39,076 nucleotides of DNA, taken from positions 1 to 39,076 of the forward strand of contig JAGOPV010000008.1 of the NCBI GenBank assembly GCA_017991775.1, given 5' to 3'. Source of the DNA: Candidatus Levyibacteriota bacterium. Lineage in GTDB: Bacteria; Patescibacteriota; Microgenomatia; Levybacterales; UBA12049. Both the position numbers and the translations under genes were made by a program. Positions 3,847 through 38,673 of the stretch are shown piece by piece; the stretch's first letter is position 1; the number at the start of each line of letters is the position of its first letter. A model generated the notes under the pieces. The model was not told the origin of the DNA and made no database searches. It worked only from the letters and a program-made list of their open reading frames with translations.

Positions 3847-4515
3847 ATGAGAATACTAGTCGTTGAAGATGAAATAAAACTTGCAAACGCGATCAAACGC
3901 GCACTAGAACTTCAGACATTTGCTGTTGATCTTTGTCATGATGGTTCTTCAGGTCTAGACTTGGCACTTGGAGAAGATTTTGACTTGATTATTCTTGATC
4001 AGATGCTTCCAGGAATCAATGGGAGTGAGATCTGTGAACAACTACGCAATAAAAATATTTCCACACCAATTCTCCTACTCACAGCAAAAGCACAGCTTCA
4101 AGACAAGATCACAGGCCTAGATCGAGGAGCTGATGACTATATGACAAAACCATTTTCCTTTGAAGAGCTTTTTGCACGAATAAGAGCACTACTACGAAGG
4201 CCAAGGAACACCGCACATGCAACACTTAGTTTTAGAAACGTGCAGCTTGATCCAGCTCATTTTACAGTGACAGTTAACTCTAAGAAAGTAGATATTTCTG
4301 CCAAAGAGTTCGCACTACTTGAATACTTGATGCGGAATAAGAATGCAGTTATGAGCCGAGATCAGATTATTTCACACATTTGGAACTATGACGCGAATGT
4401 GCTCCCCACAACTGTAGAAGTCCATATCAAAAATCTTCGAGATAAAATTGATGAAGGAAAAACTAGCATAATAAAGACAATTCGCGGTAGAGGCTATACG
4501 CTACGAGAGGACTAA
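3847..4515 (+). CDS. OmpR/PhoB-family response regulator
   Basis: 222 residues. The receiver domain (1-115) has acidic E8/D9, the phospho-acceptor D51 (IILDQMLPG), T79 and K101 (YMTKPF). The C-terminal half is an OmpR-type winged helix (about 130-220) ending in RGRGYTL. Phosphorylation by the kinase encoded 2 nt downstream should drive DNA binding to tandem 11-bp-spaced half-sites. Such half-sites are present in its own promoter (3808-3824) and before the DUF2680 gene (5541-5557). The message is predicted to be leaderless. Whether it acts as an envelope-stress regulator is inferred from its target gene only. Confidence 0.92.
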   Translation: MRILVVEDEIKLANAIKRALELQTFAVDLCHDGSSGLDLALGEDFDLIILDQMLPGINGSEICEQLRNKNISTPILLLTAKAQLQDKITGLDRGADDYMTKPFSFEELFARIRALLRRPRNTAHATLSFRNVQLDPAHFTVTVNSKKVDISAKEFALLEYLMRNKNAVMSRDQIISHIWNYDANVLPTTVEVHIKNLRDKIDEGKTSIIKTIRGRGYTLRED

Positions 4516-4517
4516 CG

Positions 4518-5540
4518 ATGTTTCATTCAGCAAGACTCACATTAACTGCTTGGTATCTCCTGATAATTATGCTCATAAGTATATTCTTTAGCGCAGCTTT
4601 TTATCATCTGGGGACACGTGAGCTAGAAAGAACTATTATGCGCACACAATTCAGGCAGCTAAATCCAGGCGTGCCGATGCCTGAAAGATTTAATGAGCGA
4701 TTAATGCCTCGACAACTAACTCTTGAAGATCTGGAGAAAGCAAAGCACCAGCTCCTTATGGATCTTGTGGTTATCAACTCCATAATTTTTATCTTTGCAG
4801 GTGCCGCAGGATATTTTCTAGCTGGAAGAACGCTGCGCCCAATAAAAATAATGATGGATGACCAGAATACCTTTATCTCCCATGCCTCACACGAACTTCG
4901 CACCCCTATCGCAGTACTTCGAGCAGAAATGGAAGGTGGACTACTTGAAAAAAGTATCTCAGAGAAGCAGGCTCGAACGCTCTTGAAAAGTAGTCTTGAA
5001 GAACTGGATACACTCCAAGATCTAACTGATGATTTACTCCGATTAACAAAGATGCAATCAGTCGATGACAACCTAAATCTCATCACACTTTCCATTTCAG
5101 AGATTATAAAAATATCTAAGGCAAAAGTTGAGCCACTTGCTCACCAAAAAAACATCGCAATTCAGATTCACGTTAAAAATGCAAAAATCCTTGGAGACAA
5201 AAGCAGTCTTACTGAGCTTTTTGTCATCATGATAGAGAATGCAATTAAATATAGTCCCTCAAGATCTAACATCTCAATCTTGTCAAAGAATTCCCGTAAC
5301 ATGATCACAATCTCAATCACTGATGAAGGCGAAGGTATACACGTTGACGATGCTCCACATATCTTTGAGCGATTTTACAGATCTAACAAGCAGCTGAGCA
5401 CAAGTGGACATGGCCTTGGACTTTCGATTGCCAAAAAGATCGTTGAGCAACATGGTGGATCTATCTCTCTTCAGCGAAATGGTAAGAAAATAGGAAGCAC
5501 CTTTGTCATTTCACTCCCCACTATCAAGTCTTCCAGCTAA
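4518..5540 (+). CDS. Membrane sensor histidine kinase
   Basis: 340 residues, partner of the preceding regulator. TM1 is about residues 11-31 and TM2 about 82-103; between them is a short extracytoplasmic loop of roughly 50 residues rich in Arg, Glu and Pro, too small for a PAS or Cache domain. A phospho-acceptor H-box follows directly (SHASHELRTP, His125), with little room for a HAMP domain. The catalytic domain has an N-box (ENAIKYS, Asn241), a G1 box (TDEGEGI, Asp269), an F-box (FERFYR) and a G2 box (GHGLGL). The small loop suggests sensing of a membrane or protein signal rather than a bound metabolite. Confidence 0.92.
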   Translation: MFHSARLTLTAWYLLIIMLISIFFSAAFYHLGTRELERTIMRTQFRQLNPGVPMPERFNERLMPRQLTLEDLEKAKHQLLMDLVVINSIIFIFAGAAGYFLAGRTLRPIKIMMDDQNTFISHASHELRTPIAVLRAEMEGGLLEKSISEKQARTLLKSSLEELDTLQDLTDDLLRLTKMQSVDDNLNLITLSISEIIKISKAKVEPLAHQKNIAIQIHVKNAKILGDKSSLTELFVIMIENAIKYSPSRSNISILSKNSRNMITISITDEGEGIHVDDAPHIFERFYRSNKQLSTSGHGLGLSIAKKIVEQHGGSISLQRNGKKIGSTFVISLPTIKSSS

Positions 5541-10823: not shown

Positions 10824-13800
10824 TTATGTAAAAATAGCATCTTCAATTTGACCGATGAAGACATCGACCCCACTGGATTTGACAGTTGCTTGCGTTTCAA
10901 GTGGAAGATACTGAGGCTCAGATGAGGATTTTCTAACTCTAACAGTTATGCCGAAATCTGCTGTATATGCTACGGAGGATATGGTAACTGTTGTGCTTGC
11001 TGCTGTGCCTGAACCAAGCAGAGTTCCTCCAGAGGTTTTGTAGACATAGTAAGTACTTCCAATAACTACATTTGTTAGAGTTATATCGACTATTTGCCCC
11101 GGGTAGTCACCTGGCCCAACAGTATTAGTAAAAATTTCAAGTCCATCAATGTAGCTATTAAAGGAAGGAAATGTTGCGAACTGTGTGTTAGTTACCACGT
11201 TGGTAGCGCGCGTCTGACTATCAGAATCACGGACTATATTTTCAGTGGCGATAAATGTCCCACTGACGCTTGAGAGAATAATAGTACCAGTAGTGGTGGT
11301 GAGCTGATAGAGCTCATCAACTACTGCAGTTACACCACTAAGTGCTCCTCTGATCGTCTCGCCAACAACAAAAGCATTTGTCTGTCCTGAGAACATCATT
11401 CCTGGACGCGCGGTTAGCCTGAGCTTAAGTAAGAATCCTGTTGTCGTTGATACTGTCTCAGCTGCCAATGCTGCTGGAGTTGCTACTTGATAAGCACCAT
11501 ATCCTGATCCTGTATCGATTGAGTACTCAATCCTTAAGGAAAAGGCAGCATCCAGACTTGAGGTATGCCCTAGATCTAGGCTACTGAATTTGAAGGGAAT
11601 ATCGCGAAATCCTGATACTGTATGGATCCTATGCGGCCAGGTGAATTCTATCGAGTCACCAGCTGTTCTCAGATACAGTCGGCCAGTATTTGAAAAAGCT
11701 GGACTCCCAGAGACAATTGCATAGGGTGGCGTATCGCTGGAGCTTGCGTTAAATCGCATAGAGAGAGCGCCAGTTGTCGGTGAAGTGAACAGCTCATGGA
11801 ACATGGTATCGTACACCGCCGTAAATGAGATACCCACTCCGTCAACAGCAGACCCAAGCGCAAAAGTGGTAGTGGTGGTAATAGCATCAGCATTACCCCC
11901 CGAGACTCCCTTCATGATGACTCCAAGAGCTGAATTGGTAGCAGAAGTATAAAATGGAATGTCGTAGTGATTAAATGTCATGTTTTGCAACATCACCCCT
12001 GAAGCGTTATTAAGGAAAGTAAACGGAGTAACTGCTGAGATATAATTTCTCCAATTTTTAACCGTGAAGTCATCAAAGACATTATTATTTGAAAGTGCAG
12101 TGCTGCTTAAAAGCATGCTCGTGTTAGCGGCATAATTAAAATCAACAGTAAAATCAAGAAAGGTGTTATTTGACGACCCCACTAGCGTCAACAGTGCTCC
12201 AGAGAGCCCCCCATAACCTTCTTGCGTAAATGTATTTATCTTATTATCAGACGCATTTAAGAGACTAATCGGCGCGTGGGATCCTAGCATGCCAACATAG
12301 GCAACTCTATTTGTGTCAGTTGGCGTAAAGCTACTCGCAGTCCCCAAATATATCTCTGAGTACAGCGCATTAACTGGGGCGGTTGCAAGCGTTAACTCGA
12401 TGCCTTGGTTGGTGTCATTTCCGCCAAGTGAGCGAGACCAGGCTGCAACTAGCGCTAACTCTTGTGCGGCAGCAGCCAGCACTGATCCTGTGATTGTCCC
12501 AACAGATATCGGCCCTTCTGCAACTAGTGGCTGTGCCGGGGTGATCGTCAGGACTGTTGCTGCCACATTTGAGAGCACATACTGACCGTCATTACTGGTT
12601 GTTCCTGCGACGATGATGCTATCACCTGAAAGAAAGCCATCAGCTGTAAATGAACCCGTTGAAGCTGTAATGGTGTGGACTGTTCCGGCTGAGGCGAAGG
12701 TAAGCGTTCTTCCTCCTGATCCTGCTGCCTTTTTTACTGTCGTATTAGTGATAGGGGCAAGTGCACCTGAGCCAGGAACCAGATTTGCTGTGCCAATATA
12801 GATATAAGTGCCTTCCGTATTAATCTGAATAGTAAATGTATGTGATGTAGAAGTAGCTGTAAAACTAGTAGCTATTCGCTGCCAAGCACCATTTGCAGTA
12901 AAGGACTGTGTTGTTGTGACTGTTGTATTTATAGCAATTTCTCCGGATATGGTTTGGATTTGAGCATTTGGATCAGTCATAACATACACTGAAAAATTAT
13001 ACACAGAGCCTGTTTCAAGATCTGCCACCGTCTGCACCACCTTGGCGCTTGGACCATTTGAGATTAGCCTATCAGCAACTCCTGTAATCGATGCAGCTAC
13101 AGCGTAAGGTGCCTGTGAGGGAGGTATTCTCTGATCGACGACTACCGTTGCACTCGTCTTGACCCAAGCAGCATTTGAAAAATCATCTGAGTAGAGTAGA
13201 TAATTAAAAGACGCTGCCGTTGGGCCGTTAACATAGACTTCAAATTCAGCACTCTCGCTTCCATACATAAAGTTAATTGTTTGGCCTGAAAAAGTGGCCA
13301 GAAAGGCAGTATCCACTGTTATTTGCTGGGTGGTATCAACGGTTACAACTTTAGTTGGCCAGGCTATACCCGGTCCGTAAATATACATGCCTGCAGCTGC
13401 ACCTTTACTAAGTGTCTGACCTGTAAAGGTGGAACTATTATTTACACTTAGGGTTATCTGCCACGGGGTATCGACCGAGACGATCGTTGCACTCGCACCA
13501 ACTCCTCCCCCAGATATCTTCATCCCAGGACACACGTTGGCAGCCAGAAAATTCGTTGTTGAACCATTGGGTATTCTGGCCTTATTTTGTCCGGATATTC
13601 CACTGCAGTTGATGATGGTACCAAGCCCGGTATCAAAACTTCCAGATGGGATGGTCAATGTGGTGCCAGCGGCAGTACCGGCAGCGTTAGTGATACCTGC
13701 ATTGGCCGCTTCATACTTCTGGAGTCGATAGTAATATGTACTCCCATTATCAGGCACAAGACCGTTAAGTGCACCGGCTGAGATTGGACCTTCATTGACG

Positions 13801-16800
13801 AGATTAGTATGATTGGTAGTCAGCGTAATCACTGTTGCAGTTAGTGAAAGGATCATAAAGGTGCCGTTATTGGATGTAGTGCCGGTAACTACTACATTGG
13901 CTCCTGCGAGAAATCCATCTGTTATAAATGATCCACTTGAGGCTGTGATGGTTCGACCCGCCTGAGCAAAGGTGAGTGTTCTTCCGCCAGATCCTGTAGC
14001 CTGAGCGACATATCCATTGGTATAAGTCACAACAGTACTTGTTGGACTATAAAAAAGACGAGAGGCACTATTTCTGGTAAACCCAGGCGATGTCCCCCTA
14101 AAAATCGTATATGAGACTATGGCTGAAGTTGGCTCACGCCGGACCCAGGTAAGGGTCACTGCCCGGGCAGCGCTGTTATAGACAGAAAGTGATTGAGGAT
14201 GATATTTATAACCCAAGTAAGGCGTTGCAGAGTATACGCGACTTTCAGTAAAGACTGACCTGTCTGTCCAGTCCTTAAAAGTCCTGATTTTAAGGTAGTA
14301 TTTTGTATCATCGACAAGGTGTGCTCCTGCAATCGGATCATTTCCAATTCTGGCAGCAGTTGTAAAATTCTTCATACCGTTGAACATATCCTCTGAATAA
14401 GTAACATTAGTAATGGTATTTTCATTTGAGACCCCTAGAAAAAAAGGTGCGAGACTGTATGACTCAAGATTGGTAATCGTATTATTATTAAAAAGCGAAG
14501 TAAGACTTAGTGCTGCTTGAAAATTCCTCACAGTATGGAGTCCATAGAATCGTATATTAGTCCAGGTCGAGTTCTCTGTATTCGTCACAACAAGAGCAGC
14601 GTTAGGGGCAGATACCGTACCTGTACCTGATGAAAGAATTAGAGCGAACGGCTGACCAATAGCCATATTTAGATCAGTTATCGTAGCGTCATTTATATAA
14701 TTCCAGGCATTAGTAGATCCACTCCCATACCTTGACTCTCGAGAGAACCACCCATTTGCTCCAACAGTAGCTGAGAACTGGTAGTATCTACGAACTGGCT
14801 CCAGAGCAAATCCGACACTATTAAGGACAACTCCATAACACTCCTGAAGGAGCGGTGGAAGTGAGAATCCGACATTGGTTAGAGATACAGACTCTGCCTG
14901 GAGAAATGAGTTGTATGATTCATCAAACAGACAAATACTCGCTGCCAGTGCTCCTCCATTACTCATCACCATGTTCGCACCAACCAGTCGTGAGACAGTC
15001 TGGATATTAGCGGGGGTACCTGAAGTAAACATGATATTTGGACATCTGACTTTGGCACCACTGGGAACCTTATTACCATTAATGTTGTCGCCGAATTCAA
15101 CTGTATTTGTCAGCTGACTGACGTATGGATTAAAACAAGTGAGAGAGACATCAAGGGGTGTTCCAGCCTGAACAGTCCATGTTGCTCCAGAATCGGTTGA
15201 TGTCATGGCATAGCTTCTATTGACAGAGGAGTTTGACAGAGCAACTAAGGTAGTACCATTAGCGCAAACTGTCATCCAGTTACCAATCTGTGTTCCAGAG
15301 AGTGTTGTTGTGGTCCATGCAGCTGCATTAGTTGATCTTGCCGTCTGGGATGAGCCAATAAATGTAGCACTTGTTGATACAACTACAAAATTTGTTCCAT
15401 CCCATGCAATACCGCGACTAAAATTATTTGGAAGTGCACCACCAGCAGCAAAAGTCCCTGATGTTGGATCTGCTTTTGACTGGCTTCCTGATGTAGAGCC
15501 CGAAACAACTACCCATAGTGATGAACCGTTGTACGCTAGAGCTGTATATGCTGCAGAGGTGGATAGTGCTGCGCCATTTGTCCATGTTCCAGCACCATCT
15601 GCATCATAATTTGTTGCTGTTCCAGTACCAACTGCTACATATCGTGACCCACCATAGGCTACTGCATTCCAGATTTGAGAAGTGGCCATCGTTGCTGTAA
15701 CCCACGTGATGCCATTGGTTGATGAAGCAGCTGCGGTTGTTGCTGCATTTGCCGCTGTCTGGCCAACGGCCACAAAACTCGTACCGTTGCTGGCAACAGA
15801 TGTCCAGTTCATAACTGAAGGCATGGCACGCTGTGTCCAGGTAATTCCATCTGCTGAGGTGGCACAATAACCCATCCCATATGCGCCATGTGATGCAACA
15901 GCCACGAAAAGTGCGCTAGTCGCGCCGTAGGTAACAGATGTCCAATCAGCGATAAAGGGCAATGTTCTCTTGGTCCAAGTAGCCCCGTCAGAGGATGTGG
16001 CTGCAACATTTGAATATCCCCTTGAGACTGCAACATAGGTACTATTCCCATATGCTACAGAGCTCCAGTCTGGAGATATCTCAGTTGTTGTGCTGACATT
16101 TAACTCGATCTGGGTTGAGGATATCACCCTGTTAACTACAGTGTTAGCAGGAATTCCGACTGGGCCAAATACCGAGGCCCCAGCGTAGATACCTGTTGAG
16201 GAGGTAACTGTTAATAATTTCTGAGCAAGACTGCCATCTGTGCAGTTGATAGTAGTTGGACCGTATGGGCTAGATGCTGCTTGTTGAATAAAAAATTTAC
16301 CCCTTTCTTCTTTACCAACAGCTGATAGCCCATTGGTTAATAATGGCGCTGTGTCCCCATATGCGCCGGTGGCATTAAGCCACATTTCATAGACGCCAGA
16401 CCCCGATGCTGTCTCCACCCAAAGCGCTGCGATATAGTCAGTAAATGGCGCAGTCATTTCTTGACCTGATGTGCCATCCCCAGTCCCCAACTCTATCCAG
16501 TTGCCGGTGATTTCGATATCTCCGATACCTGATCCAGGAGTTATTGCAGCTTGCGCTGCACCAGAGACACGTCCCATGGTAAATCGGATACCTGTTGAAG
16601 TAGAGTTATTTGTGATATGAAGCTTACCATTAGTGAGAGTTATGGCATTCCAGAATTTCTTTTGATCAGTATTTACAGTTACAGTTGCATTGTTGGTGAT
16701 GACAAGAGTGTCATTGCTGTTCCACGTTGTTGGAGTATAGGCAATGCATGAGACTGCCTGGGAGAGCTGAGCGATAGCATCCCAATTAAATCCATCAGGA

Positions 16801-17657
16801 CTAGTCGCGGCATTGGTCGATGAGGTCGAGACAGCTGTAAAAAGATTATTACCAAAAGCAACACCTACCCAGGCTGCAGTTGCAGGCAGAGTTCTTGGAG
16901 TCCATGTAATTCCATCAGGGGATGATGCAGCAATCGATCCGGTGGTGTTGCTGAGTGCCACAAAAGTACCGTTGCCATAGGCAATAGACCTCCAGTTAGA
17001 TGAGGATGGCATGGTCATCTCTTGCCAGGTCGCTCCGCCATCAGTGGAATAGGCGCCTTTGTCCGTACCTGAAGCGATAGCGACAAAGGTGCTTTCGCCA
17101 TAGACCATATCTGTCCAGTTACGAGATGCAGGAAGAACTCCCCCTGCAGTCCAGCTAGTGCCATTGGTGGAATAGGCTGAGTCGGTACTACCATATGAGA
17201 CTGCCACAAAACGTGATCCTCCAAATTCCAAGGCTCGCCAGTCGCCACTCACAGGTAACGCACTCATCGATGTCCATTTAGCTCCATCCAATGAATATGC
17301 TCCAGCCGTTGAGCCACCACCTGCTGTAGAAACGAATCTATCGAGGCCATATTTGACTGCATACCAGGAGGCTGTAGCTGGCATAGTGCGAAGTGTCCAG
17401 GTGGCAGATGCTCCAGCCGGAGAAGAAGCAGCAATAGTGCCTGAAGTCGAGCTAACTGCGACAACTAAATTATTACCATAACAGACAGCTTGCCAAGCTG
17501 AGGACTGAACTATCGTGGCGGTTGCCCAGGTAGTGATACCCGTAGCTTGGGTCTGATAAGTTGCTGAACCCGATGGAAGTGCTACGAATGCAATACCTGC
17601 AGACATAGCAAATGCGTCATCCGCGTTTATACTTCTGTCTACCGTTATTGATGCCAC
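10824..17657 (-). CDS. Giant tail-fibre-like multidomain protein (2277 residues)
   Basis: Starts at GTG 17657 behind GAGGAGGGA. There is no signal peptide and no membrane segment, and the protein is Ser/Thr/Gly/Ala-rich. Modules by eye: two blocks of about 50-residue repeats with W..V.YG...FVAV and S.DG..W Asp-box motifs (about residues 45-305 and 527-840), probably beta-propellers of BNR/sialidase type; an FN3-like module (1152-1210); two copies of a 75-residue module beginning GSGGRTLTF (about 1221-1296 and 1645-1719); a jelly-roll carbohydrate-binding-like module between them (1486-1625); an Asn-rich beta-helix-like stretch (1826-1919); and a compact C-terminus ending VFIGQIEDAIFT. This mosaic resembles fibre or adhesin proteins of tailed phages. 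No portal, terminase or integrase is nearby. Role: glycan or cell binding, inferred. Confidence 0.75.
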   Translation of the reverse strand: MASITVDRSINADDAFAMSAGIAFVALPSGSATYQTQATGITTWATATIVQSSAWQAVCYGNNLVVAVSSTSGTIAASSPAGASATWTLRTMPATASWYAVKYGLDRFVSTAGGGSTAGAYSLDGAKWTSMSALPVSGDWRALEFGGSRFVAVSYGSTDSAYSTNGTSWTAGGVLPASRNWTDMVYGESTFVAIASGTDKGAYSTDGGATWQEMTMPSSSNWRSIAYGNGTFVALSNTTGSIAASSPDGITWTPRTLPATAAWVGVAFGNNLFTAVSTSSTNAATSPDGFNWDAIAQLSQAVSCIAYTPTTWNSNDTLVITNNATVTVNTDQKKFWNAITLTNGKLHITNNSTSTGIRFTMGRVSGAAQAAITPGSGIGDIEITGNWIELGTGDGTSGQEMTAPFTDYIAALWVETASGSGVYEMWLNATGAYGDTAPLLTNGLSAVGKEERGKFFIQQAASSPYGPTTINCTDGSLAQKLLTVTSSTGIYAGASVFGPVGIPANTVVNRVISSTQIELNVSTTTEISPDWSSVAYGNSTYVAVSRGYSNVAATSSDGATWTKRTLPFIADWTSVTYGATSALFVAVASHGAYGMGYCATSADGITWTQRAMPSVMNWTSVASNGTSFVAVGQTAANAATTAAASSTNGITWVTATMATSQIWNAVAYGGSRYVAVGTGTATNYDADGAGTWTNGAALSTSAAYTALAYNGSSLWVVVSGSTSGSQSKADPTSGTFAAGGALPNNFSRGIAWDGTNFVVVSTSATFIGSSQTARSTNAAAWTTTTLSGTQIGNWMTVCANGTTLVALSNSSVNRSYAMTSTDSGATWTVQAGTPLDVSLTCFNPYVSQLTNTVEFGDNINGNKVPSGAKVRCPNIMFTSGTPANIQTVSRLVGANMVMSNGGALAASICLFDESYNSFLQAESVSLTNVGFSLPPLLQECYGVVLNSVGFALEPVRRYYQFSATVGANGWFSRESRYGSGSTNAWNYINDATITDLNMAIGQPFALILSSGTGTVSAPNAALVVTNTENSTWTNIRFYGLHTVRNFQAALSLTSLFNNNTITNLESYSLAPFFLGVSNENTITNVTYSEDMFNGMKNFTTAARIGNDPIAGAHLVDDTKYYLKIRTFKDWTDRSVFTESRVYSATPYLGYKYHPQSLSVYNSAARAVTLTWVRREPTSAIVSYTIFRGTSPGFTRNSASRLFYSPTSTVVTYTNGYVAQATGSGGRTLTFAQAGRTITASSGSFITDGFLAGANVVVTGTTSNNGTFMILSLTATVITLTTNHTNLVNEGPISAGALNGLVPDNGSTYYYRLQKYEAANAGITNAAGTAAGTTLTIPSGSFDTGLGTIINCSGISGQNKARIPNGSTTNFLAANVCPGMKISGGGVGASATIVSVDTPWQITLSVNNSSTFTGQTLSKGAAAGMYIYGPGIAWPTKVVTVDTTQQITVDTAFLATFSGQTINFMYGSESAEFEVYVNGPTAASFNYLLYSDDFSNAAWVKTSATVVVDQRIPPSQAPYAVAASITGVADRLISNGPSAKVVQTVADLETGSVYNFSVYVMTDPNAQIQTISGEIAINTTVTTTQSFTANGAWQRIATSFTATSTSHTFTIQINTEGTYIYIGTANLVPGSGALAPITNTTVKKAAGSGGRTLTFASAGTVHTITASTGSFTADGFLSGDSIIVAGTTSNDGQYVLSNVAATVLTITPAQPLVAEGPISVGTITGSVLAAAAQELALVAAWSRSLGGNDTNQGIELTLATAPVNALYSEIYLGTASSFTPTDTNRVAYVGMLGSHAPISLLNASDNKINTFTQEGYGGLSGALLTLVGSSNNTFLDFTVDFNYAANTSMLLSSTALSNNNVFDDFTVKNWRNYISAVTPFTFLNNASGVMLQNMTFNHYDIPFYTSATNSALGVIMKGVSGGNADAITTTTTFALGSAVDGVGISFTAVYDTMFHELFTSPTTGALSMRFNASSSDTPPYAIVSGSPAFSNTGRLYLRTAGDSIEFTWPHRIHTVSGFRDIPFKFSSLDLGHTSSLDAAFSLRIEYSIDTGSGYGAYQVATPAALAAETVSTTTGFLLKLRLTARPGMMFSGQTNAFVVGETIRGALSGVTAVVDELYQLTTTTGTIILSSVSGTFIATENIVRDSDSQTRATNVVTNTQFATFPSFNSYIDGLEIFTNTVGPGDYPGQIVDITLTNVVIGSTYYVYKTSGGTLLGSGTAASTTVTISSVAYTADFGITVRVRKSSSEPQYLPLETQATVKSSGVDVFIGQIEDAIFT

Positions 17658-17911: not shown

Positions 17912-19165
17912 CTACAATTTTGTGGTCAAAATTGTTGGATTTAGTCGATATGTTTTATTTTGATTTAGTATCAATTTCAGAGGAGCAATTTTAGATACCT
18001 TTTTATTAATACTAATCATTGCGTCATATACTTTTCTATTATTATTTGATGAGGAATGTTCACCAAATCGTTCGAGAAGCACGTCTGTTTCAAATCTTTT
18101 TGAAGAATTAGAAAAAAGCATTTGTAGAAGATAAAATTGATTCGTTGCATAAGGTATCTCGATATCTACGCCTTCAACAATTAACAGTCCCCTTTGTTCA
18201 TTAAAAACAATCTTTTTGGGAATTGTGCTCTGTACTAAATTTTCTTTATTATGATTTTTTGTGAACAACAATATATATACTGTAAAAAATAAAATAATCA
18301 CACTAATTCCTCCTTGGAAAGCTAAGTATTGTTTTAAAACAATTAAAAACGGTCCTATAGATTCTCCGATCACAAGTACAGCTACGGGATTTGAGTTCTT
18401 TTCGATTGGGGAAGATTGAATAAAGAAGTATTCGCCTGTTTGACTATCGCGAATAATACGTTTCTGTGATGACATTGTGTATTTTCTAACATAACTTGGG
18501 TCAATAAAATTTGGAATCCTGTTCATACTGTTGACATTTACAGTCTTTGTCACAATAGTGTTATATGAATCAATTATGTTAAATGATATATCGTAAGGAA
18601 TTTTTCTAGGATCTATTTTGCTAATGTTGATCATTCCTTGAGTTGTTGAAACTTTTGCAGAGATATCATTTGCAGTTTTTACGAGCTTGATATCGATCTG
18701 ATCAAGCAGTGCCTCTGGTGGATTAAAATACGACACTGCTATTACGCCAACTGGTTTATTCTGATACAAAATTGATTTTACATAAACACGACGCGATTGA
18801 TTTGTGATACTTTTTACTGTTTGAGGGATTTTAAAAGTGAGAAGACGCTTGAAATCAGATGTATCTAAGAATCCGCGTATTTGTGCCCTTCTGTCGAGGA
18901 CAAAACCGTCTACCGTGATGAAATACAAAGGGTATGTTCCGATAAGAATCGGATCTGTATTATATGAGGATAAATCCCATGATCCATTATTCCACTGCAC
19001 GTCTCCCATAACTCTCTGGATTTTGTGATCCACTTCTTGTTGAATTTGGTACAAAAATATAGCAAGGAGAATAACTAAACTTGCGATTAGTTGTAGTAAG
19101 AAGGCGCCTAATAATATAAAAATTAATCGTTTATGATTTTTTAATTTAGTTAATAATTTATTCAT
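17912..19165 (-). CDS. Membrane-anchored winged-helix regulator, C-terminal DNA-binding domain
   Basis: 417 residues from ATG 19165 (the open frame goes to 19234, but a -10/-35 pair lies in between). TM1 is about residues 14-40, then an extracytoplasmic domain of about 240 residues with alternating strands (Cache/PAS-like in feel), TM2 about 283-302, and a cytoplasmic C-terminal domain (316-410). The last has the OmpR-type winged-helix pattern: strands IVFNEQRGLLIVEGVDIEI, helix QFYLLQMLFSN, helix TDVLLERFG, recognition helix RKVYDAMISINKK, and wing LILNQNKTYRLNP. ToxR/CadC carry this domain at the N-terminus; here the order is reversed. It likely senses an outside cue and binds DNA at the membrane. 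The giant gene lies downstream on the same strand. Confidence 0.7.
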   Translation of the reverse strand: MNKLLTKLKNHKRLIFILLGAFLLQLIASLVILLAIFLYQIQQEVDHKIQRVMGDVQWNNGSWDLSSYNTDPILIGTYPLYFITVDGFVLDRRAQIRGFLDTSDFKRLLTFKIPQTVKSITNQSRRVYVKSILYQNKPVGVIAVSYFNPPEALLDQIDIKLVKTANDISAKVSTTQGMINISKIDPRKIPYDISFNIIDSYNTIVTKTVNVNSMNRIPNFIDPSYVRKYTMSSQKRIIRDSQTGEYFFIQSSPIEKNSNPVAVLVIGESIGPFLIVLKQYLAFQGGISVIILFFTVYILLFTKNHNKENLVQSTIPKKIVFNEQRGLLIVEGVDIEIPYATNQFYLLQMLFSNSSKRFETDVLLERFGEHSSSNNNRKVYDAMISINKKVSKIAPLKLILNQNKTYRLNPTILTTKL

Positions 19166-19179
19166 GAGTAATTTGTTAG

Positions 19180-19208
19180 AGTATAAACAAGAGAAACATA
19201 AGAAACAA
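19180..19208 (-). promoter_or_regulatory. Promoter of the membrane regulator gene
   Basis: TTGTTT (19203-19208), 17 bp, TATACT (19180-19185). The ATG follows 14 nt after the -10 box, so the leader is only about 7 nt and has no Shine-Dalgarno site. Confidence 0.65.
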
Positions 19209-19220
19209 GTTATTCTAGCA

Positions 19221-19232
19221 GGTATATATACC
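19221..19232. promoter_or_regulatory. Perfect 12-bp palindrome upstream of the membrane regulator
   Basis: GGTATATATACC, 12 bp upstream of the -35 box. An operator for autoregulation is possible. The remainder of the gap (19233-19410) holds only an 17-residue hydrophobic frame (ATG 19255, stop at 19308) with TATTAT 7 nt before it, and two GGAG-type purine runs; no gene is supported there. Confidence 0.35.
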
Positions 19233-19410
19233 AAATTGGATTATTATTTTCATCATGATATTAAGTACAGCAACTGTTCTTCTTATAGCACTCGCTGAAT
19301 TAACCTGAAGGAGTACTAAGGAGGCTGGAATTGTAGGCGCAAGGTATTCTCTTTAAACAGTCTAAAGTATTTTAGGAGTTCAGGAATAACATTATTCCGC
19401 ACCGTGACTG

Positions 19411-20692: not shown

Positions 20693-21088
20693 CTAAAATC
20701 CCCACTCGCTCTGCCACTGCTTCATTTGTAGTATTTCTTTCTCTTGTGCAGAGATAATGTCGTTTGCCATCTTCTTTATCTCGTCATGACCTGCACTTGC
20801 TTGAGCGAGCTTAGCCATATCTATTGCGCCTTGATGATGATCTATCATCTCTGTCAAGAATGTCTTATCAAAGTCGTTGCCAGCTTTTCCCTTCAAACTG
20901 CCAACCATATCATCCATTGTCATCCCGTCATTCATCGTGCTCATTTCCTCATGCATTTTAGCTGCCTCCTCTTGATTTGAAGTCATCATCCTACTTGGTG
21001 AGAACTGTGTAGTCTGCAGAAAATTTGAGAGGAGAAATCCAATAAGCAATCCACCTACTCCATATAAAAGTGCTTTATTAATAAACAT
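20693..21088 (-). CDS. DUF305 membrane-anchored metal-associated protein
   Basis: 131 residues from ATG 21088, chosen because GGAGGTGA lies just upstream; the open frame continues to a TTG inside that site. One N-terminal membrane anchor (about 5-25), a Met-rich stretch (residues 34-62 hold many Met), then a four-helix DUF305 fold with the family hallmark EMIDHHQGAIDMA and a later ending AQEKEILQMKQW. DUF305 proteins (CopM type) are secreted ferritin-like helices that bind copper or silver. It is the last gene of the CsoR operon, 24 nt after the HMBD-MauE gene, and is presumably induced by the same metal. Confidence 0.88.
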   Translation of the reverse strand: MFINKALLYGVGGLLIGFLLSNFLQTTQFSPSRMMTSNQEEAAKMHEEMSTMNDGMTMDDMVGSLKGKAGNDFDKTFLTEMIDHHQGAIDMAKLAQASAGHDEIKKMANDIISAQEKEILQMKQWQSEWGF

Positions 21089-21112
21089 AATTTTCACCTC
21101 CAATCATAAATA

Positions 21113-21739
21113 TTACTTAAGAATCAAAAGCATGAATGCCAAAGTTGCCATCCCAAAATCTTCAATCAAAGTTACTTTTGTAAGTGGCACCTTTAAAAAT
21201 GTTCCAAGACATGCACACTGAAATTTCTCTTTCTTTGCAATCTTTATAGCAACACCGATACCACTAAATCCCATCACCAAGATCTCAAGAATCATCAACG
21301 CAACAGAGTGGGGTATCAGTATCATCGATAGTCCAAATGCCAATTCAATAAATGGATAGATGTATCCATATCCAAACCATTTTTTAGCAAGCAAATCATA
21401 CGTACTATATCCTTGTGCAAAACCTTTCAGATCGATCAACTTAAATCCAGAAAAAACTAAGAAGAATCCAATCATGAAATATGAAACGCTTTGAGAAAGA
21501 TTCCATCCGCCAAGCTGCAGATCTCGTATAGAAATTGCAATTGATGAAAGTAATATCAAACCAATGATGACAAATAATGGCAGATAATTTTTAAGATTTA
21601 CCCCTGCGCCGTGATACATAGTTGTTTCATGAACCAAATCTGCCTTTAGCACTAAGTCCATGCCACATTTTGGACACTTACTTTGTCTAGTGCTCTCAAC
21701 TTCTAGGTGCATAGGGCATATATATTTTTTCATATTCAT
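21113..21739 (-). CDS. HMBD-MauE fusion membrane protein
   Basis: 208 residues. The N-terminal 30 residues form a heavy-metal-binding domain (YICPMH, then CPKCGMDL), as found at the ends of copper ATPases and CusB-like proteins. Four membrane segments follow (starting about 52, 84, 124, 188) in the MauE/DoxX arrangement, with a CACLG cysteine pair (about 173-175) before the last, typical of redox-linked MauE proteins. A role in metal or thiol homeostasis at the membrane is likely. The ATG overlaps the CsoR stop (ATGA, 21736-21739); ATG 21733 is an alternative start. Fusion of both parts in one chain is notable. Confidence 0.8.
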   Translation of the reverse strand: MNMKKYICPMHLEVESTRQSKCPKCGMDLVLKADLVHETTMYHGAGVNLKNYLPLFVIIGLILLSSIAISIRDLQLGGWNLSQSVSYFMIGFFLVFSGFKLIDLKGFAQGYSTYDLLAKKWFGYGYIYPFIELAFGLSMILIPHSVALMILEILVMGFSGIGVAIKIAKKEKFQCACLGTFLKVPLTKVTLIEDFGMATLAFMLLILK

Positions 21740-22008
21740 TTATTTTTTCGTTTGAAAAGTGTTACAAGTTCTTCTACTGCTTTACCCTGCTCGCTTACCA
21801 TTTGATCAACAACGTGAGTTGAAATATGACGTTCAAAGAGAATTGAGTCGAGACTTTTGAGAGAATTCTGAATTGCGAGACTTTGATTGAGGAGATCAAT
21901 GCAGTAGTCATCTGCTTCTATCATTTTTTGCAAACCATCCAGTTGACCTTTAATAATATTTAATCGCTTCTGAGCTTTCTCTTTTACATCGGAATAGTGA
22001 GATTTCAT
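21736..22008 (-). CDS. CsoR/RcnR-family metal-sensing repressor
   Basis: 90 residues, all-helical DUF156 fold. Metal ligands in the family positions: Cys36 (DDYCIDLL), His61 and His65 (RHISTHVV), plus His4. The set Cys-His-His, with an N-terminal His, differs from the classical Cys-His-Cys of copper CsoR and matches RcnR (Ni/Co), though Thermus CsoR also has Cys-His-His. The frame is open to 22047, but that would include the operator; ATG 22008 starts 6 nt after the -10 box. The operator sits in its own promoter, so it should repress its own operon until metal binds. Neighbours point to copper or silver. Confidence 0.9.
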   Translation of the reverse strand: MKSHYSDVKEKAQKRLNIIKGQLDGLQKMIEADDYCIDLLNQSLAIQNSLKSLDSILFERHISTHVVDQMVSEQGKAVEELVTLFKRKNK

Positions 22009-22014
22009 GCTTTT

Positions 22015-22043
22015 ATCATATACCCGTGGGGGGTATGTGTCAA
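22015..22043 (-). promoter_or_regulatory. Promoter with CsoR-type operator
   Basis: TTGACA (22038-22043), 17 bp, TATGAT (22015-22020), then 6 nt to ATG 22008. The spacer is filled by an inverted repeat, CATATACCC and GGGTATGTG on the plus strand (22017-22025 and 22031-22039), of the TACCC/GGGTA type bound by CsoR-family repressors. Confidence 0.8.
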
Positions 22044-22059
22044 GCACATAATTGGGTGT

Positions 22060-37924: not shown

Positions 37925-37985
37925 ATTTTACCATGAATCCAGCTTCATAATATGGCTTGAGCTGTGTGATTGATGCTGCTATACT
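37925..37985. promoter_or_regulatory. Divergent promoters of the two regulator genes
   Basis: Minus: TAAAAT (37925-37930), 6 nt to ATG 37918. Plus: TTGAGC (37957-37962), 17 bp, TATACT (37980-37985), 10 nt to ATG 37996. Confidence 0.6.
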
Positions 37986-37995
37986 TTGTCCATCC

Positions 37996-38673
37996 ATGAC
38001 GCACAAAGTACTCGTAGTTGAAGATGACAAAGGACTCCAGAAATACCTCCAAGAATTACTCCTTGATAACGGCTACTCTGTAACGCTGGCTGACGATGGC
38101 ATTATCGCACTCCAGATACTCTCTACCACTCCACCAGACATCGTTATCCTGGACCTCAATCTCCCTACGATGGGCGGTGAAGCAGTAATTGGCGAAATTC
38201 ATAAAAAATATAAAGAGATTCCAGTGATTATTCTCACAGCGAAAGACAGTGTGACAGATGTAGTCCAAGGTTTAAATCTCGGAGCAGACGACTATATGAC
38301 AAAACCATTTATTGCAGATGAGTTTCTGGCACGCATCAAAGCTCGCCTGAGACGCTCATCTGGGGAAAATGAGTCAATTCTAGTAGTTGATGACTTATCG
38401 CTCAATACCACAACGCTTGAGATTAAGAGAGGCGACAAGCAAATTCATCTTACTCCCCAAGAATTCAAGCTGCTACAGTATCTGATGAACAACAAGGGTC
38501 GTATTCTCACACGAGAAATGATCCTAAATAGGATATGGATGTACTCCAGCGATATAGAGACGAGAGTTGTGGATGTCTATATGGGATATCTTCGTAAAAA
38601 GATTGATGGGGATTTTGAGAAAAAGCTACTTCACTCAGTTAGAGGATTTGGATACGTTATTAAAGAAGAGTAG
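37996..38673 (+). CDS. OmpR/PhoB-family response regulator (second)
   Basis: 225 residues from ATG 37996 (the frame is open to 37957, where the -35 box lies). Receiver: Asp10/Asp11, phospho-acceptor Asp53 (VILDLNLP), Thr81, Lys103 (YMTKPF). The OmpR-type winged helix (about 130-225) ends RGFGYVIKEE. Its last 14 bp overlap the end of a histidine kinase gene on the other strand, an unusual tail-to-tail pair for partners. No CTTAAG direct repeats are seen near it, so its target sites differ from those of the regulator at 3847. Confidence 0.93.
   Translation: MTHKVLVVEDDKGLQKYLQELLLDNGYSVTLADDGIIALQILSTTPPDIVILDLNLPTMGGEAVIGEIHKKYKEIPVIILTAKDSVTDVVQGLNLGADDYMTKPFIADEFLARIKARLRRSSGENESILVVDDLSLNTTTLEIKRGDKQIHLTPQEFKLLQYLMNNKGRILTREMILNRIWMYSSDIETRVVDVYMGYLRKKIDGDFEKKLLHSVRGFGYVIKEE

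Follow-up and report, generated by a model that had tools for sequence, protein, structure and literature searches.

AraC-type regulators of Bacillus, YesS for example, pair two helices with an external sensor and carry their DNA-binding domain at the C-terminus. ToxR, CadC and TcpP combine an external sensor with a membrane-bound OmpR-type winged helix; in these proteins the winged helix is N-terminal and precedes a single membrane helix. A survey that counted 50,302 transmembrane transcription regulators puts the share with two membrane regions at 17% (Demey et al. 2023, PMC10269533). A study of Cache domains lists Cache proteins with HTH-clan or LytTR outputs and assigns a Cache domain to WalK (Upadhyay et al. 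2016, PMC4822843). The regulators and Cache-HTH factors of these papers resemble the protein described here, with its predicted DNA-binding domain, in combining such a domain with membrane helices.

This protein also resembles ToxR, CadC and TcpP in having an external sensor and a membrane-bound, predicted OmpR-type winged helix. Unlike theirs, its winged helix is C-terminal (residues 318-409) and follows two membrane helices; the protein thus falls outside the ToxR/CadC family. A sequence-only reading of the locus had described this as a reversed domain order. The description holds against ToxR/CadC but not against OmpR-type response regulators, where input first and winged helix last is the ordinary polarity. 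Since response regulators have this same order, the membrane sensor here occupies the place of the receiver domain.

The gene, its relatives and its neighbourhood

The window (the whole stretch of DNA analysed, 39,076 nucleotides) is one complete contig of a very small Patescibacteria genome, 0.81 Mb in 30 contigs. An open frame with a TTG start at 19234 can be read on the minus strand from 17912 to 19234. Homologs begin near the ATG at 19165 rather than at the TTG; with this start, the gene occupies 17912-19165 (-) and encodes 417 amino acids. It is supported by the open frame and by in-frame homologs in five other genomes. Because alignment with the homologs sets the start at 19165, a palindrome at 19221-19232 lies outside the protein.

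The part order proposed from the sequence (N-terminal anchor, external region, second membrane helix, C-terminal winged helix) was borne out. It is kept by five full-length genes in Microgenomatia, found in this genome, G005, G086, G210 and G176. The G026 homolog is split into two halves on two contig ends and has the same order. Identity of the homologs to this protein is 28-39%, with G005 at 39% and G210 and G176 more distant. The regulator is rare: among the 73 genomes of the family, 4 have it, and a sample of the class yielded five full-length genes among 374 genomes (G026 is not among that sample's matches). Scans of viral contigs found no relatives, and a viral structure library gave nothing convincing. 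The literature search found neither a description of such a protein in Patescibacteria nor a laboratory test of any member of the group.

The next gene downstream (window 10824-17657 (-)) shares the strand and is separated from the regulator by about 255 bp; it encodes a giant fibre-like protein of 2277 amino acids. The regulator, pointed out as the first gene upstream of the giant gene on this strand, was proposed as a possible switch for surface-contact genes. The position is as described; the linkage is not conserved. G005, G026 and G086, the three other regulator-bearing genomes of the family, lack the giant gene, while G065, from another genus of the family, has a giant-gene homolog (84% identity) and no regulator. 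Matches to the giant gene occur in 3 of 73 family genomes, its own included; one of these matches is weak. The neighbourhoods of the relatives are unrelated: the regulator lies between metG and tatD in G026, beside CBS and transporter genes in G005, beside an ArsB/NhaD-like transporter gene in G086, directly after tRNA-Pro and before rarA/cysS in G210, and after ftsX and an M23-type peptidase in G176. Names of neighbouring genes were assigned by reading ORF translations. In G210, only four bases separate the end of the tRNA-Pro gene (L019 1419-1493) from the start codon of the homolog (1498-2706).

In G065, the neighbours of the giant-gene homolog (L060 8794-15618 (+)) include further very large, beta-rich proteins, two receiver domains standing alone and a dCache_1 histidine kinase. 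The giant gene and its surroundings look like a mobile surface or phage-related cassette. In the window, a metal-type cluster at 20693-22047 (-) contains a CsoR-like repressor, a heavy-metal-binding/MauE membrane protein and a DUF305 protein.

A possible promoter, TTGTTT-17-TATACT, was read by eye at 19180-19208 (-); it falls below the promoter-scan threshold and is not listed by the scan. Upstream of it is the perfect 12-bp palindrome GGTATATATACC (19221-19232), which had been pointed out from the sequence. The palindrome exists; a function for it is not supported beyond chance. There are 17 perfect 12-bp palindromes in the window, and approximately 4% of 100-bp windows contain one. It was not found upstream of five homologs, and this is the only copy in the genome. 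A role as operator was rejected on these grounds.

A switch reserved for the neighbouring giant gene and further surface-contact genes would fit the shared strand and short spacing, as well as the fact that the giant-gene homolog of G065 also adjoins a Cache-type sensor protein, the histidine kinase. Kinship between the sensor of this kinase and that of the regulator was rejected (hhalign probability 0.1). With the regulator and the giant gene each occurring without the other, unrelated neighbourhoods among the relatives and a palindrome at chance frequency, the proposal is not upheld, and a switch of this kind is very improbable.

The sensor front and its coupling

The external sensor spans residues 40-270 (18356-19048 (-)) and consists of two PAS/Cache-like halves, one distal (approximately 57-150) and one proximal (approximately 194-270); the whole external region is about 245 residues long. 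Pfam Cache_WalK matches five of seven aligned sequences (best 1.2e-6), Pfam ArlS_N two of the seven, and NCBIfam HK_WalK three (best 6.5e-6). This protein alone matches Cache_WalK with E 0.0018 and 19.1 bits, below the curated cut-off of 27, and a PDB search with its sequence alone found nothing. The model of residues 1-307 aligns to a WalK model with Z 11.3 and rmsd 4.2 over 178 residues; the crystallised external domain of WalK (4ywz) aligns with Z 8.5 and rmsd 3.2 over 124 residues. Profiles and models thus identify the front half as a predicted Cache sensor, most like that of the histidine kinase WalK. Side matches to Rota_NS53 and TerB_C in Pfam and to BrxA in PADLOC were dismissed as single, weak and against the trend.

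The regions matched by WalK, ArlS and genuine histidine kinases in profile comparisons comprise the sensor and stop at the second membrane helix. The family profile also matches two HisKA-bearing histidine kinases elsewhere in Patescibacteria: L038, which has both HisKA and HATPase, and L040, whose HisKA lies in a 291-aa open frame. These matches cover profile positions 138-323 and 150-323, which correspond to the membrane-proximal half of the sensor and helix 2. Pfam gives no match to HisKA or HATPase_c in this protein or the aligned sequences, and none to Response_reg in this protein. The earlier comparison with a histidine kinase in which DNA binding takes the place of the catalytic part is therefore fair, DNA binding being predicted, and the likeness is stronger than the sequence-only reading could tell.

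The first membrane helix comprises approximately residues 14-36 (19058-19126 (-)) and is preceded by the basic MNKLLTKLKNHKR; the second comprises approximately residues 283-306 (18248-18319 (-)). Both are supported by the model and by hydropathy, which predicts helix cores at residues 15-33 and 283-301 in all five full-length members (this protein and four homologs). Basic residues lie N-terminal of helix 1, on the cytoplasmic side, in most members and just after helix 2 in several. In the full-length model, which is of low confidence (pLDDT 60), single long helices at residues 2-55 and 271-309 each extend out of the membrane span, as in Cache sensors. The second helix is followed by a linker (residues 307-317; 18215-18247 (-)) which is unconserved according to the alignment and per-domain identity.

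Conservation varies between the parts. Mean pairwise identity is highest in the distal sensor (38.8%) and the winged helix (38.6%), and lowest in helix 2 (14%) and the linker (11%); linker length among relatives ranges from 6 to 16 residues. Rigid helix-to-helix coupling as found in kinases is unlikely, given the low conservation of helix 2 and the linker and the variable length of the latter; control by the dimer state or by the proximity of the winged helices would be more likely. The same features could suggest regulated proteolysis, in which cleavage at helix 2, set off by a signal, would free the winged helix to reach the nucleoid. This is improbable: there is no protease partner in a conserved neighbourhood, and relatives of the ToxR/CadC type work while membrane-bound (PMC10269533).

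A membrane-bound mode of action is preferred. A WalK-like Cache sensor outside the membrane, presumably dimeric, would take up a signal; its state would be passed through the second membrane helix and the short flexible linker to the OmpR/PhoB-type winged helix. The winged helix, tethered to the membrane by its N-terminal side, would bind promoter DNA at putative target genes. Signalling may occur through the dimer state, or when two winged helices are brought close to each other, rather than by phosphorylation. The protein is probably a compact, one-piece gene switch.

The C-terminal winged helix and its family

The winged-helix domain comprises residues 318-409 (17939-18214 (-)), as identified by a domain model, Foldseek and VIA-align matches to OmpR-type domains, and hhalign. 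Its fold had been set beforehand as the point on which the proposal could fail; an OmpR/PhoB winged helix is predicted. The model of the isolated domain, made from only three sequences, has pLDDT 83.6 and pTM 0.77. It has the layout EEE-HHH-EE, with three N-terminal strands, three helices and a C-terminal hairpin; helix 3 is RKVYDAMISINKKVSK. The best 50 PDB matches in VIA-align are all winged helices of the OmpR/PhoB/ToxR type, CadC and ToxR included. PrrA is the top match (Z 12.4, rmsd 1.8, 92 residues).

Sequence comparison points to the same group. The best PDB sequence match is the DNA-binding domain of AdeR (E 0.014). Pfam Trans_reg_C matches the domain with E 0.006 and 17.1 bits, below the curated cut-off of 26.2; it is consequently the profile-profile comparison which carries the kinship with OmpR/PhoB. 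In this comparison, hhalign aligned a profile of 14 diverse members over 93 columns (probability 93.6, E 2.1e-7) with four canonical winged helices of Patescibacteria; three of these come from this genome and the fourth from G148. Canonical OmpR-type signatures (the conserved Trp, R-L-R and G-x-G-Y) are missing or give way to Y-D-A-x(4)-N-K-K. Helix 3 has the pattern R-x-V-Y-D-A-x(4)-N-K-K where V-D-V-H-I-x-x-L-R-x-K is usual.

The genome's only full-strength matches to Trans_reg_C are a response regulator paired with a histidine kinase (window 3847-5537 (+); a canonical pair), a second OmpR-type regulator (window 37957-38673 (+)) and an NTPase-like protein on contig 22. This last protein (L052) and the NTPase-like protein L025 end in a canonical OmpR-type winged helix, which represents another one-component design.

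The divergent winged helix is not limited to membrane proteins. A search with the 14-member profile finds it at the end of soluble proteins in many Patescibacteria. Of 380 sampled Patescibacteria genomes, 25 carry it, almost always no more than 12 residues from the C-terminus, and most carriers are without a membrane helix; examples are the C-terminal ends of the proteins at L021-L043 and L061-L087. Scans of soluble carriers gave no convincing Pfam family, and no family recognises the divergent domain above cut-off in the members scanned. This placement in many proteins and the altered helix 3 make the domain look like an exchangeable C-terminal output domain. It is without a name in the libraries searched, and recognising it could aid the annotation of many proteins of unknown function.

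Lack of surface charge for DNA binding had also been set as grounds for abandoning the proposal; the net charge is +5 for the domain, +4 for helix 3 and +3 for the wing, and the idea withstood this test. The DNA-binding domain of the window's own response regulator, in a slightly shorter 82-residue cut, has +3. Charge varies across the divergent group from -4 to +9, with one relative at net -2 and another at 0. This range, the loss of canonical residues from helix 3 and the occurrence of the domain at the end of many soluble proteins of unknown function would suit a domain that has the winged-helix fold but binds protein or RNA, in which case the protein would be a membrane-anchored scaffold or co-regulator. 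Such a role is unlikely, as all close structural matches are DNA-binding domains, helix 3 and wing are both positive in this protein, and fusion to a sensor fits standard signalling logic.

Comparison with known systems

Two membrane helices in each of the five full-length members, together with a DNA-binding domain predicted by fold and profile, agree with the definition of transmembrane transcription regulators. The features computed here are a gene with homologs, two membrane helices, a Cache/WalK-like front, a winged-helix fold and no kinase or receiver domains; the protein is likely to be a transmembrane one-component transcription regulator. If this is true, a sensor of the histidine-kinase type drives an OmpR-type winged helix directly, without a kinase, a receiver or phosphate, and the regulator is a natural test of the minimum needed between sensor and DNA. 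One subsurface survey found kinases to be least frequent in CPR bacteria (PMC10805038), and this genome contains only two HisKA matches. The direct design would therefore occur in bacteria with few kinases.

The regulator probably arose when a sensor front of the histidine-kinase type was fused to the divergent winged helix that ends many soluble Patescibacteria proteins. A more specific history is offered tentatively and is doubtful: a WalK/WalR-like two-component system may have collapsed, in a Patescibacteria lineage, into a single kinase-free membrane regulator with a winged-helix output peculiar to the phylum. This regulator would signal without phosphorylation, and would save genome space in sensing the envelope or a host surface.

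WalK (YycG) is similar in that its external Cache domain is flanked by two membrane helices, and it provides the best structural and profile matches to the front half. In contrast to WalK, the regulator does not contain HAMP, cytoplasmic PAS, HisKA or ATPase domains, and the winged helix stands in the place of the kinase. Its external region is also larger, with two PAS-like halves; the 124 aligned residues compare with a WalK chain of 147. OmpR/PhoB-type response regulators (WalR, PrrA, AdeR, SaeR) likewise have a C-terminal winged helix joined to the input by its N-terminal side. They differ in having a receiver domain, where the input here is a membrane-spanning sensor, and in the signature residues of the winged helix, which have diverged in the regulator.

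The available portions of PMC10269533 and PMC4822843 mention neither Patescibacteria nor a C-terminal OmpR-type winged helix joined to a WalK-like front. Since two-helix regulators and Cache proteins with HTH outputs have been published, two-helix membrane regulators and Cache-HTH fusions are already known kinds, and only the combination appears to be new. In the genomes compared, which are Patescibacteria, this combination consists of a predicted OmpR-type output, drawn from a divergent Patescibacteria winged-helix family, on a WalK-like front.
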